A stretch of 20,757 nt of DNA, from the IMG/VR virus record IMGVR_UViG_3300042294_002172, positions 1-20,757 of that record; one strand, 5' to 3'. This document shows, one piece after another, positions 72-14,743 of the stretch. Every line of letters starts with the position of its first letter. Position 1 is the first letter of the stretch. Source of the stretch: a virus. The position numbers and the translations under genes were made by a program. The notes below the pieces were generated by a model. It worked only from the letters and a program-made list of their open reading frames with translations. It did not search any database and was not told where the DNA came from.

Positions 72-389
72 TTATGCCGTAGGGGGTTTGTTGCCTCTTG
101 AGCTGTTACAGGATTTATGAGCTGGTAATAGTGGTGATTGTGATTGACCTGGGAAGTAGTGGTCTGCTGTGATTTGTGATTTGTCTGTGAATGGCTGGTT
201 ACATAGCCAACATATTGTGGCTGAATCTCTTACTTGTTTTGCTCTTTTGCGATAATCGCCTGAATAGTGTGTTCTGTTTGGTTTACGTCTTTCGTCTAAC
301 TTTGCAATGTATTCGCTTTGGTGTTTAGCGCAACGGTTTCCTTTCTCAACGAGTGTGCCACAGGTGAGGCAAGGTCTTTTAAATCCCAT
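72..389 (-). CDS. HNH endonuclease (terminal, packaging-associated type)
   Basis: This 105-aa protein has two zinc-binding parts. The N-terminal knuckle has C7, C10, C20 and H23. The HNH (beta-beta-alpha metal) core has C60-x2-C63, the D76-H77 catalytic pair, and C94-N95 followed by RGNK. Small HNH proteins of this layout sit next to the terminase genes in many cos phages and assist DNA cleavage during packaging; that role is inferred. The start overlaps the preceding HslV-like gene by 94 nt and I see no strong Shine-Dalgarno, so translation is probably coupled. The N-terminal Cys/His cluster is the reason to keep this start. The GC-rich 1-71 segment lies directly downstream. Confidence 0.85.
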   Translation of the reverse strand: MGFKRPCLTCGTLVEKGNRCAKHQSEYIAKLDERRKPNRTHYSGDYRKRAKQVRDSATICWLCNQPFTDKSQITADHYFPGQSQSPLLPAHKSCNSSRGNKPPTA

Positions 390-985
390 TGTTTAATTGT
401 CCCATTGGATTGAGATACCCAGCCGTAGATTGGTGGATGGGAGAAGCTGTCGTGGGTGGTAGCTGTTTCTATTGCTTGATACAAATATGTTGTGTGATTC
501 TTGGCCCAGTCATTTGTTGTTCTGAATGCTGTGGCTAATGAACCTAAAGCTAATGTTCCACCTGAACCTATTGCCCAGTATGGTGTGCATCTTGATATGC
601 CAAGTGTGTTGCTTATGCTGAATGCTTTGCCGTGTGTTACGAGTATTAGTTCTGAGTCTGGTAGTTCTGCTACACCATCTTTAACATCAAGAGCTAATTG
701 TTCTTGTGCAACCTTTCTAATTAAAGGAATGATTCTTTTTGCTATCCATTGATACCAACTCATTATGTCCTCTTTCTTTTTCAGTTGTGGTGGAACAGCT
801 GGATACTTCACAAGATATTGTGTAATGTCACAAATTCTGTCTGCCCCTGCCGCAGCTATTAACCATTCTCCTTGTCGGATTATTTTATTCATAGGCATTG
901 AGGTAGTAAAATTTTCATCTGTTATGCCACTTTCTGACATCATCACGCATTGTTTGTTTGTTGATGCAATCCCTATTGTTGTCAT
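296..985 (-). CDS. HslV/proteasome-like Ntn hydrolase
   Basis: This 229-aa protein resembles the proteasome beta/HslV fold. It starts Met-Thr-Thr-Ile; after Met removal Thr1 would be the N-terminal nucleophile. In mature numbering Lys33 (in the MNKII context) is at the catalytic lysine position, and Glu17 sits where HslV and proteasomes usually have Asp17. An AAAG turn near residue 45 and an IGSGG motif near residue 140 followed by a helix match the family, the latter corresponding to the conserved G-S-G region around Ser129. A phage peptidase or a cleavage/assembly factor is possible; the substrate is unknown and no ATPase partner (HslU/ClpX-like) is visible. Its start overlaps the previous stop (ATGA), and its last ~31 codons overlap the HNH gene. 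The D-to-E change leaves activity open. Confidence 0.7.
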   Translation of the reverse strand: MTTIGIASTNKQCVMMSESGITDENFTTSMPMNKIIRQGEWLIAAAGADRICDITQYLVKYPAVPPQLKKKEDIMSWYQWIAKRIIPLIRKVAQEQLALDVKDGVAELPDSELILVTHGKAFSISNTLGISRCTPYWAIGSGGTLALGSLATAFRTTNDWAKNHTTYLYQAIETATTHDSFSHPPIYGWVSQSNGTIKQWDLKDLASPVAHSLRKETVALNTKANTLQS

Positions 986-1089
986 TTAACTTTCAGGCTC
1001 TCTCGGTCAATGGATATGTTGGCAGCCTGTAAACATTCGGCATAAGTGTTATGGTCTTGTGTTTCGCAACCTGAACGACAGTTACTCAT
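982..1089 (-). CDS. Cys-rich microprotein of a conserved actinophage family
   Basis: This 35-aa ORF runs from ATG at 1089 to TGA at 982. Its start overlaps the end of the 1082-1273 gene by 8 nt, and its stop overlaps the HslV-like start as ATGA. The peptide contains CRSGCETQDH followed by a Y-A-E-C segment and two alanines. I recognise the pattern C-x-S-G-C-x-T-x-D-H-x5-E-C-x2-A-A from small proteins common in actinobacteriophages, usually with Trp where Tyr is here. Three cysteines and a histidine could bind a metal. No function is known to me. The family's longer members continue well past this motif, so this may be a minimal or shortened version. Confidence 0.75.
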   Translation of the reverse strand: MSNCRSGCETQDHNTYAECLQAANISIDRESLKVK

Positions 1090-7030: not shown

Positions 7031-7260
7031 ACATCTTTTAGATTCGCACGCAGCTTTTGAACCCTAATTCTAGTCCAAGCCACATAAGCTAGACAATCAT
7101 CAAGTTCTTCTAAAGCATCATCTAAAACCTCTGCTGGTGTCTTATCCTCAATTTTTTGTCGCTCGCCAGAGTCGTATTGAGAAGCACCAATGCTGAGTAT
7201 TCGTTTCTCAACATTAGAGATGGCGTGACTTATCGCTTTTGCTAGTTGCTCACTTGTCAT
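7024..7260 (-). CDS. Hypothetical protein (78 aa), MazG-like C-terminal helix pattern
   Basis: This is a small all-helical acidic protein. Its second half has a QYDSGERQKIED segment followed by LDDALEELDDCLAYVAWTRIRVQKL, which resembles the EExxD-containing helix of phage proteins related to the MazG/all-alpha NTP pyrophosphohydrolases, but a full EExxE...ExxD site is not visible. I would not claim enzymatic activity. The start at ATG 7260 overlaps the phosphoesterase stop (ATGA). It is the last gene of the operon starting near 9895, followed by the 7001-7030 hairpin. Confidence 0.6.
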   Translation of the reverse strand: MTSEQLAKAISHAISNVEKRILSIGASQYDSGERQKIEDKTPAEVLDDALEELDDCLAYVAWTRIRVQKLRANLKDVI

Positions 7261-8606
7261 AAGACGGCTAAATCACTCCAACCCTTTTTATCGTGCTGAC
7301 CTACCAGCAGGGTCATAGTTCCTGGTGAACTCCAGATTCCAGAGATATCTGTGAACCATTTTGAACCACCAGAAGTTGAACCATCAGTATCAAGTGATGG
7401 GCATTGGAAACGAGTGAACGCACCAAAGTCATCAATCTTAATATGATGCTTATGAGCTGTAAACCATATTCTTGGTTCAGCTCCGTTATCTCTAAGAAGT
7501 CTTAATGATTGTGCTCTCAGCCATTCAAGTTCTTTTCCAGATATTTTATGTCCGTGAGTGAACGCTACTTCTATTCCTGAAAGATTAACTTGCATAGTCA
7601 TTTGGTCGTGTGGAATATGCCAATCATCAACAACGTCATAACCATCAAGAATACGTTTCAAAGTATCCGCTAAAAATCCATCTGCGCTGTCACTATCCGT
7701 TGTTATATTTCTGCCACCGCGTCTTTGCCATTCTCCGTGATTACTTAAAGTAGAAATAAACTTTGTTCTCTCAGCAAGACCAGACAAAGTAGTTACACCA
7801 GTAGTCCACAAATCTAAAGCTGTAAGAAGTTGTTGTCTTTGTGTTTGCTCAACAGAAAACAACTGTGAAGCATAATGACCATCACAACCCTCAACAGGGT
7901 CACCCATATTCACAAAAGCAATCTGCTCAATATTGCGACCAGTTTTCTGTAACTCCTCAACACGTTTCGTTGTTTTCTCAAAAGAATCCAAAACACGTTT
8001 AACAGTTGCTTTAACACCACCAGAAGCAGACTTAGCCAACTGCCAATCAGCCCATAACACCACAAACGTTGATGGGTCTTGAGTAACTCTTTTCAGAGTG
8101 CCTTTAGAGGGCTTAAAAGACCTAATATTGGCGCGAATTTCCTCAATATCATCTTCAGATACCTTTGGGGTGCTCCTGCGAGTAAAAACTGCTTTGTATG
8201 AATAAAGCCAAATCAAATCTCTATCGCCATTTTCTAAACGCTTAGATGATTGCCATTTGGACATTTTTACTTTGTCATCAGCAATCTCAAAAATAGCTGG
8301 GTCTAAACCAAAACTTAAAAGAATTGAATCCCAATCAGTTATCGGTGTATCAACAACACCAGTAGAAATCTCAGCAGTATCTTTTGTCATTTCAACAAAA
8401 GGTTTAGATGCTTGCCCTACAACATCCTCAACTTCCTCAACCTGAACAATATTATTTTTCTTCATATACTCTTGGAGCGCCCTTTCAGCTTCCTCTTTAG
8501 TATCGAATTGACCCAAAGAAATCTTTGATTTACCTTCCGTGAACCTTGCACGGAATTTACCTGTTTCGCGTTTTTCTACTGCGCCGAAACTTCTAATGTT
8601 TTTCAC
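7257..8606 (-). CDS. Mre11-like metallophosphoesterase with N-terminal AP2-like domain
   Basis: This 449-aa protein starts at GTG 8606 behind AAGAGGACAA. Residues 1-48 form a three-stranded-sheet-plus-helix pattern (GKFRARF...KISLGQFDTKEEAERALQEYM) like AP2/integrase-arm DNA-binding domains. After a linker, residues ~180-445 carry calcineurin-like phosphoesterase motifs: VVLWADWQL (D187), VNMGDPVEG (D236), TLSNHGEW (N289-H290), AFTHGHK (H351, H353) and WFTAHKHH (H385-H388). Actinophage relatives are annotated as Mre11-type double-strand-break endo/exonucleases. A role in recombination with the nearby annealing protein is likely. The first motif has Gln where His is usual (D-x-Q). The DNA-binding head could direct the nuclease to phage DNA (inference). 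Confidence 0.8.
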   Translation of the reverse strand: MKNIRSFGAVEKRETGKFRARFTEGKSKISLGQFDTKEEAERALQEYMKKNNIVQVEEVEDVVGQASKPFVEMTKDTAEISTGVVDTPITDWDSILLSFGLDPAIFEIADDKVKMSKWQSSKRLENGDRDLIWLYSYKAVFTRRSTPKVSEDDIEEIRANIRSFKPSKGTLKRVTQDPSTFVVLWADWQLAKSASGGVKATVKRVLDSFEKTTKRVEELQKTGRNIEQIAFVNMGDPVEGCDGHYASQLFSVEQTQRQQLLTALDLWTTGVTTLSGLAERTKFISTLSNHGEWQRRGGRNITTDSDSADGFLADTLKRILDGYDVVDDWHIPHDQMTMQVNLSGIEVAFTHGHKISGKELEWLRAQSLRLLRDNGAEPRIWFTAHKHHIKIDDFGAFTRFQCPSLDTDGSTSGGSKWFTDISGIWSSPGTMTLLVGQHDKKGWSDLAVL

Positions 8607-12378: not shown

Positions 12379-13059
12379 ATGAGCCAAATAACCTTTCGAC
12401 CTATAAAAGATTTTGAACATATAGCAATACCACCAAAACCAGCAAAATTAGAAATTCCAAATTGGTACAAAGATATGCCAACCGACATCAACGACAAAGA
12501 ATCTATTGATAGATTTACTTCAAAAAGGTGTATGCCTTTATTAGACGGATTAACAAATGGTTATTACCTATATAACTATGCTGACATTCACGTCAAAGTT
12601 GAAAATGGTTGCTCTAAATTACAATGGACTCATTCTTCACCAGTTATTGACACTCATCAGCGAAGCCAAGTACCTGGAGTTCCTTTACCAATAGGTTATT
12701 ACAAAGATGAGGCTTTTAAATTTTTTAATCCAATTAGTATTCAAACACCAAAAGGGTACAGTTGTTTGTTTACACACCCTACTTTAAGATTTGATTTACC
12801 ATTTTTTAGTTTTCCTGCAATTGTAGACACAGACGAATACAAAACAGCAGTTCATATACCCTTTTTAATAAAAAAGAATTGGACTGGAACTATCAAAAAA
12901 GGCACACCAATAATTCAAGTTTTTCCTTTTAAGCGTGAAGATTGGCAATCAGCTTACAAAGATGAAGCTGTTGATAACGATAAAATGATTTCATTTCTTA
13001 AAACTTTTATTCATAGTGCTTACAAGAAAACTTTTTGGCACAAAAAATACTTTAATTAG
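12379..13059 (+). CDS. DUF6065-like protein, the only plus-strand gene
   Basis: This 226-aa protein has SKRCMPLLDGLTNGYYL near residue 50, a GYSCLFTHPTLRFDLPF segment in the middle and GTIKKGTPIIQVFPFKREDW near the end. This order (R-C-x-P-L...N-G-Y, ...F-x-HP, ...GxPIxQxxPxxR) recalls DUF6065, a family of unknown function in phages and bacteria. There is no signal peptide or TM segment. It is very AT-rich, lies opposite to all neighbours and overlaps the stop of the glycine-rich gene by 8 nt tail to tail. This looks like an independently acquired and expressed gene (a moron). Family assignment is by motif memory. Confidence 0.6.
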   Translation: MSQITFRPIKDFEHIAIPPKPAKLEIPNWYKDMPTDINDKESIDRFTSKRCMPLLDGLTNGYYLYNYADIHVKVENGCSKLQWTHSSPVIDTHQRSQVPGVPLPIGYYKDEAFKFFNPISIQTPKGYSCLFTHPTLRFDLPFFSFPAIVDTDEYKTAVHIPFLIKKNWTGTIKKGTPIIQVFPFKREDWQSAYKDEAVDNDKMISFLKTFIHSAYKKTFWHKKYFN

Positions 13060-13891
13060 TATATTTAATAATCACAATTCCGTTGCCACCACGACCACCG
13101 CCAGTTGTTTGCTGACCACCACGACCACCGCCAGAACCAGTACCATCTTTTCCTGAAGTTCCGTGTTGAGCAGGACCGTTTGCTGAACCAACCCATTGTC
13201 CACCAATACTTGAACCACCTAAAGATGGTGTGCAATTGTAAGAGTTACCGCCACCACCGCCACCACCGCCAGCATAAAATAAAGAAGTTCCTGTAATCGA
13301 ATACGCTAAACCTGCGCCACCTGAACCGTTTTGTGTTTGACCTGTGTTGTTGCCAACTCCTCCAGCGCCTCCACCACCTCCAGCGCCACCACTTGTACCA
13401 TTTTGTGCAACACCGTTGCCGCCTGCTGAACCTTGACCTGCTGTACCAGAACCGCCATTGTGTGCGTTGCCGCCGTTTCTAATTCCAGCGCCACCACCTG
13501 AGCCACCATTGCCACCATTTTGACCACCATTGCCACCATAACCACCACCAACAGCAATTTGATTATCAAACTGGCTACTTCCACCTTGAGTATTTCCATT
13601 ACCACCTGCACCGACTGTGATTGCGTAAGTTGTTCTTGGTGTAACTGTGTATGCAGCAGAATAAATTAAACCGCCAGCACCACCACCGCCACCTGCGATT
13701 CCAGTACTTGCTGCGCCTCCACCTCCACCACCAGCAACAACTAACAATTCAACAGCATTAACCCCACCAGGACAAAGAAAATTTCCATTTGCTGAAAAAG
13801 TTTCAACATAACTATTCAAGATTGGAGTATTGTTATATGTCAAAGATTTCTCAGACATAAAAGAATTAAACGAAAGCCTTTTTATACCCAT
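13052..13891 (-). CDS. Glycine-rich tail fibre-like protein (copy B)
   Basis: This 279-aa protein has a short non-glycine N-terminus (1-40), a strand segment NAVELLVVAGGGGGG, then a long Gly/Asn/Ala-rich region and a C-terminal GRGGNGIVIIKYTN. This is the phage glycine-rich domain type, which probably forms polyglycine-II helical bundles in fibres or adhesins as in long-tail-fibre tips (analogy). It is the downstream paralogue of the 13901-14743 gene: both share the KR-x-S start, LLVxGGGGG, YxxTVGxGGxG and the GNGIxIxKYT end. It starts at ATG 13891; the ribosome binding site is weak. It is probably a host-recognition or decoration protein. Confidence 0.7.
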   Translation of the reverse strand: MGIKRLSFNSFMSEKSLTYNNTPILNSYVETFSANGNFLCPGGVNAVELLVVAGGGGGGAASTGIAGGGGGAGGLIYSAAYTVTPRTTYAITVGAGGNGNTQGGSSQFDNQIAVGGGYGGNGGQNGGNGGSGGGAGIRNGGNAHNGGSGTAGQGSAGGNGVAQNGTSGGAGGGGGAGGVGNNTGQTQNGSGGAGLAYSITGTSLFYAGGGGGGGGNSYNCTPSLGGSSIGGQWVGSANGPAQHGTSGKDGTGSGGGRGGQQTTGGGRGGNGIVIIKYTN

Positions 13892-13900
13892 AACATAATC

Positions 13901-14743
13901 TTACTGTGTGTATTTCAAAATAATAATTCCATTACCGCCAGCAGCACCACCGTTACCCCCAGCGCCACCACCACCACCTAAACCATTTGTACCAGCATTT
14001 CCGCCAGCATTTCTATTTGAGTTTCCACCGCCACCTGTGCCACCTGCTCCAGTGTTTTGATTATTACCAGTAGTTCCACAACAACCAGCTCCACCACCTG
14101 CATAAGTTACAGATGAACCAGAAATAGAATAAGCGATACCATTACCCCCATTTGTGCCACCGAGTTGATTACTGGTTTGACCAAAGTTACCAGCGCCACC
14201 GCCACCGCCACCGCCACCTGGACTGCCGTTTTGTGGGACAGAGTTACCCCCACCATATCCTTGACCTATCATCCAATAACCTGAATAGTGAACGTTTCCA
14301 CCATTTGCAGCGCCACTTCCGCCACCTGAACCAGCGTTTTGTGAGTTGTTTCCGTTTGCGTAACCTGTGCTACCACTTCCACCGCCATAAGCAGTTTGGT
14401 CGCCAAAAATAGAACCGTTACCATTAGCACCACCACCACCACCAGTACCAACTGTGACTGTGTAACTTGTCGCATTTACTGGGAATGATGCATTATAAAT
14501 AACTCCACCTGCTCCACCGCCACCACAACCAATATTTCCAGCACCATTAGCTCCGCCACCGCCACCGCCAACTAAAAGAATTTCAACAGTTCTTACGCCT
14601 TTTGGTCTTTGCCAAGTTGTCGTGCCAGAAGTAAAAGTTAAAAGTTGCGAGCCTTGAAAAGATAAAGATTCATCTTTTGGATTAAAAAAAGTGTTTGCCT
14701 CAGATGGGTGTATAAAATTTTGCCTTGAAAATCTTTTAATCAT
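13901..14743 (-). CDS. Glycine-rich tail fibre-like protein (copy A)
   Basis: This 280-aa protein is the tandem paralogue of the next gene. Residues 30-50 (FTSGTTTWQRPKG) form the typical lead-in, followed by VEILLVGGGGGG, a long glycine-rich region with NN and GG tracts (including GAGCCGTTGN with two cysteines), and GNGIIILKYTQ at the end. The Thr/Trp-rich lead-in and the VxxLLVGGGGGG strand mark the beginning of phage glycine-rich domains. The start at ATG 14743 overlaps the upstream gene by 8 nt and follows CTGGGAAA. Differences in the glycine-rich middle between the two copies suggest fast-evolving binding loops (inference). Confidence 0.7.
   Translation of the reverse strand: MIKRFSRQNFIHPSEANTFFNPKDESLSFQGSQLLTFTSGTTTWQRPKGVRTVEILLVGGGGGGANGAGNIGCGGGGAGGVIYNASFPVNATSYTVTVGTGGGGGANGNGSIFGDQTAYGGGSGSTGYANGNNSQNAGSGGGSGAANGGNVHYSGYWMIGQGYGGGNSVPQNGSPGGGGGGGGAGNFGQTSNQLGGTNGGNGIAYSISGSSVTYAGGGAGCCGTTGNNQNTGAGGTGGGGNSNRNAGGNAGTNGLGGGGGAGGNGGAAGGNGIIILKYTQ

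Follow-up and report, generated by a model that had tools for sequence, protein, structure and literature searches.

A proteasome-like Ntn hydrolase with Glu17 encoded near the presumed cos site of a probable actinobacterial phage

The window, i.e., the whole 20,757-nucleotide stretch of viral DNA analysed here, contains an ATG-initiated open reading frame of 229 codons on its minus strand, whose product has a proteasome (Ntn-hydrolase) fold. This frame lies among the following features:

1–45, no strand assigned: presumed cos region (from the ends of relatives' contigs, by sequence reading)
72–389, minus strand: HNH endonuclease gene adjoining the presumed cos site (PHROG 338, E 7.4e-8; kept in relatives)
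296–389, minus strand: 94-base overlap of the protease gene 3′ end and the HNH gene start (from ORF coordinates)
296–985, minus strand: proteasome-like Ntn hydrolase (group I, BPH/HslV-like), 229 aa (from PHROG, alignment, profile, AF2 model and Foldseek)
982–1089, minus strand: gene for a 35-aa Cys-containing microprotein, MSNCRSGCETQDHNTYAECLQAANISIDRESLKVK; its stop codon and the protease start codon overlap (ATGA)

The protease gene overlaps both of its neighbours, its first 4 bases being shared with the stop of the microprotein gene, and the earlier note had correctly placed it between a microprotein gene and the HNH gene with the presumed cos site. The microprotein, which begins MSNCRSGCETQDHNTYAECLQ..., has no Pfam match. 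Translation of the protease frame yields the N-terminus MTTIG and the stretches MTTIGIASTNKQCVMMSESGITDENF...PMNKII...AIGSGG, where the IGSGG motif occupies residues 139–143; Thr, Glu and Lys stand at mature positions 1, 17 and 33. Ten viral contigs carry the gene (62–91% identity) in much the same gene order, and dN/dS values relative to the window sequence, calculated outside the stretch shared with the HNH gene, range from 0.09 to 0.24. The gene is therefore under purifying selection. Together with a match of the window protein to PHROG 1040 “peptidase HslV family” (E 1.5e-12), its conservation in the ten contigs and the dN/dS values indicate that it is a genuine gene and not a chance reading frame. 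The part of the protein encoded by the overlap with the HNH gene (residues 199–229) is 72% identical in the clade alignment vs. 89% in the core, and residues 206–229 are predicted to be disordered in the AlphaFold2 model.

In nearly all contigs of the relatives, the gene order SSB – HNH – 105 aa – 64 aa – protease – HNH is found. Three of these contigs (L004, L008 and L009) stop at a homologous point, GACAC|CCCGCGCCC, by the HNH gene, while the others continue through it, which suggests, as far as can be read from the sequences, that this point is a cos end. Beyond the presumed cos, the relatives have a ParB/methyltransferase gene followed by TerS, TerL and portal genes, the last three assigned by eye and position. 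The earlier statement that the protease lies away from capsid genes thus holds up to the presumed cos site, but not beyond it. WhiB genes are present in the window and in nine of ten related phage records tested, making actinobacterial hosts likely; the phage therefore probably infects actinobacteria. Two scans of genome contigs retrieved no cellular relatives or prophages, and a plasmid search gave weak Sinorhizobium matches at most.

Several other genes of the window and its clade deserve mention in their own right. The minus-strand gene at 7257–8606 encodes an exonuclease (PHROG 284) that looks like a fusion, as its first 50 residues are similar to a module of HNH/integrase proteins. A 226-aa ORF without a Pfam match (12379–13059) lies on the opposite, plus strand amid tail and lysis genes. 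Two adjacent minus-strand genes for glycine-rich proteins, 13052–13891 (which matches Gly_rich_2, PF21722) and 13901–14743, look like tandem copies. In the window clade, genes that by eye resemble glycosyltransferase genes lie directly behind the major capsid gene (L121:10693-13081 and L120:3699-5662), and the first of these regions also has a cytidylyltransferase-like gene, again recognised by eye.

As a single query, the window protein had no significant match in Pfam or among PDB sequences; PF00227 did match 21 of 32 aligned relatives. A profile built from the window protein and its relatives (32 sequences) retrieved from the PDB BPH (5ovu, 7.6e-12), HslV (3ty6, 1.8e-10) and then 20S β subunits. 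An AlphaFold2 model of the window protein (pLDDT 80, pTM 0.77) shows the proteasome-type order of strands and helices with two helix pairs. The best Foldseek match of this model in the PDB was again BPH (5ovs, E 1.8e-10, TM 0.76–0.77 depending on the target), followed by 20S β and HslV among 1218 PDB matches at E ≤ 0.001; many predicted phage proteins were also returned. The model thus matches BPH, 20S β and HslV, so that one of the two refuting outcomes named in the earlier note, a model that departs from the Ntn-hydrolase fold, did not occur, and the window protein is confirmed as a member of the proteasome-like Ntn hydrolases (PF00227/PHROG 1040).

Using mature residue numbers after the 20S β subunit, the active site residues of the window protein are Thr1 (T2), Glu17 (E18), Lys33 (K34), the oxyanion-hole Gly (G47), Ser129 (S141), Asp166 (D179) and Ser169 (S182). 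In the alignment, the active site is complete. In the window clade, which consists of the window protein and nine distinct relatives, Thr1, Glu17, Lys33, Ser129, Asp166 and Ser169 are invariant (10/10), so that the residues singled out earlier for alignment (2, 18 and 34) are fixed as Thr, Glu and Lys. In an alignment of 80 distinct phage sequences, Thr1 is found in all 79 rows that reach this position and Lys33 in every row. Position 17 distinguishes the clade: it is Glu in all ten members vs. Asp in each of the other 70 sequences. A single D-to-E change suffices on the tree, where the supports are 100/100, with the bootstrap not fully settled and long branches present.

The earlier note had treated Glu in place of Asp as an anomaly that might point to a repurposed scaffold. 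However, Glu17 occurs naturally in the PDB β subunits of T. acidophilum (1pma) and A. fulgidus (1j2q); the Thermoplasma β sequence used as query was identical to that of the PDB chain. The catalytic triad has been described as Thr1, Lys33 and Asp/Glu17, and, for the Thermoplasma enzyme, an E17A exchange that abolishes activity has been cited (Huber et al. 2016, PMC4792962). QM/MM calculations gave barriers for D17E similar to those of the wild type (PMC11494509). Taken together, these data favour activity of an enzyme with Glu17; the Glu is no anomaly, and the inference of a repurposed scaffold drawn from it loses its support. The simple equation of Glu17 with an inactive protein is ruled out by the archaeal enzymes and the Asp/Glu17 triad. 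A catalytically dead protein that has kept the proteasome fold alone would agree with the lack of an encoded partner ATPase and with Glu17 as it was once read, i.e., as a lost catalytic Asp, but we consider it very improbable, given that Glu17 is normal in active archaeal enzymes and that none of Thr1, Lys33, Ser129, Asp166 and Ser169 varies in the clade.

Among known systems, BPH is the best structural and profile match to the window protein (5ovs/5ovu), a resemblance and not a membership, as BPH is a bacterial gene product with 16–17% identity to the window protein in the structural alignment. BPH forms a heptameric double ring, and no unfoldase is known for it (Fuchs et al. 2021, PMC8665760); no AAA+ gene was found in the six phage records searched. 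HslV (ClpQ), a hexameric double ring, shares the fold, Thr1 and the GSGG motif, but its partner ATPase is HslU, for which these records showed no gene. The 20S β subunits of Thermoplasma and Archaeoglobus share the Thr1-Glu17-Lys33 triad but work with α subunits and are weaker profile matches. Phage proteasome homologues have been described before as PPH and AAH, which, like the window protein, belong to group I (Fuchs et al. 2021, PMC8665760). PPH proteins have ca. 140 aa and lack helix H2 (PMC8665760), whereas the window protein has 229 aa and possesses H2, helices 49–60 and 74–97 both being seen in the AF2 model, and so it is not a PPH; for AAH-type homologues, no actinobacteria-specific phage carrying one was found (Fuchs et al. 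2021, PMC8665760). Since proteasome-fold proteins also include the monomeric ligase connectase, one may ask whether the window protein is a highly specific transpeptidase/ligase or single-substrate enzyme of that kind. The AF2 model makes this highly improbable: it has no trace of the two helices inserted between S3 and S4 by which connectase is recognised, and it contains the first helix pair, which is missing from connectase.

In the window and five relatives of up to 35.8 kb, neither an HslU-type (PF07724) nor a general AAA (PF00004) domain turned up. These six records are fragments or near-complete contigs, so that absence from them is no proof; the earlier remark that no partner ATPase is visible agrees with this result. 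We consider it reasonably probable that the window protein is an active, BPH-like threonine peptidase that self-assembles into a ring and acts independently of an ATPase. Met1 would be removed by the host methionine aminopeptidase, exposing Thr1, since the second residue is small and the gene encodes no propeptide. Glu17 would polarise Lys33, which would in turn activate the Thr1 hydroxyl, and the Thr1 amine would be tuned by Ser129, Asp166 and Ser169. The subunits may form a homo-oligomeric ring or double ring, which would cleave peptides, unfolded proteins or specific proteins in the course of infection. As in BPH, no unfoldase of its own would be needed, although a host unfoldase could still act as a partner.

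Such a partnership could go further, with the phage protein docking on a host AAA+ ATPase or on the 20S α ring and redirecting or blocking degradation. Many actinobacteria have Mpa/ARC and a 20S proteasome, and the WhiB genes, which make actinobacterial hosts likely, as well as the lack of an unfoldase gene in the phage genomes, are consistent with this idea. Yet the sequence profile is nearer to BPH/HslV than to 20S β, and relatives from the same PHROG are found in many phages of enterobacteria, which are not known to have a 20S proteasome. We therefore regard a partner or decoy of host degradation as quite improbable. The analysis turned up nothing in favour of the interference or assembly with host subunits that the earlier note had considered conceivable.

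Homologues annotated as HslV or protease in other phages share with the window protein the fold family, the N-terminal Thr, Lys33, the GSG motif and their location in phage genomes. Those compared here, from Actinomycetia phage DSL-LC01, Arthrobacter phages Hum25 and Pitbull, and Microbacterium phage Pumpernickel, carry Asp17 and belong to groups that are ca. 22–28% identical to the window protein. Their neighbourhoods are unlike that of the window, except in Hum25 and Pitbull, where the homologue is located shortly before a right-end HNH gene; in larger phages, the homologue adjoins nucleotide-metabolism genes. A different arrangement is seen in the ct2KA10-like group (L038-L117 and L118:5698-8036), in which 144 contigs were confirmed and 80 kept. 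In all 75 of these contigs with a detected portal gene, the homologue follows the portal gene after a short gap; one contig of this type (L108) gave no portal match despite sufficient upstream DNA. Neither an S78 nor a ClpP-type protease was found in five ct2KA10-like records of 37–40 kb, which is near genome length.

These arrangements bear on another reading, according to which the protein is a morphogenesis protease. Its substrates would be head, scaffold or packaging proteins, and its gene would for that reason stay with the terminase/portal end of the genome. The position behind the portal and the lack of S78 and ClpP-type proteases in the ct2KA10-like group, the order protease – HNH – cos – ... 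– TerS – TerL – portal in the window clade, and the HNH gene close to the Hum25 and Pitbull homologues all speak for it. On the other hand, the window clade encodes an S78 prohead protease of its own (PF04586, 4.6e-41), contained in a 605–657 aa fusion encoded just before the capsid gene, the window protease gene is oriented with the replication genes (SSB, HNH), and the neighbours in larger phages are nucleotide-metabolism genes. For the window protein, we think a morphogenesis role unlikely, and the S78 protease rules out that it is the sole head protease of its phage. It is likewise rather doubtful that in small actinophages a proteasome-type protease took over part of capsid/portal maturation, replacing the S78/ClpP-type enzyme in the ct2KA10-like group and acting at the packaging end in the window clade.

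A probable BPH-like peptidase, the window protein joins a known phage protein family, to which its Glu17 clade of single origin adds a small twist. In the literature searched, neither biochemical data nor a tested function was found for any phage member, and papers on phage HslV or BPH offered annotation only; the occurrence of HslV without HslU had already been noted in a paper on a Salmonella jumbo phage (PMC7823757). The portal-linked sister group is a more interesting lead than the window protein itself. Peptidases of the proteasome type, of one kind or another, are common among WhiB-carrying, probably actinobacterial phages, including the 144 contigs of this one group, and the position next to the portal gene makes one candidate role, in head/portal maturation, directly testable.
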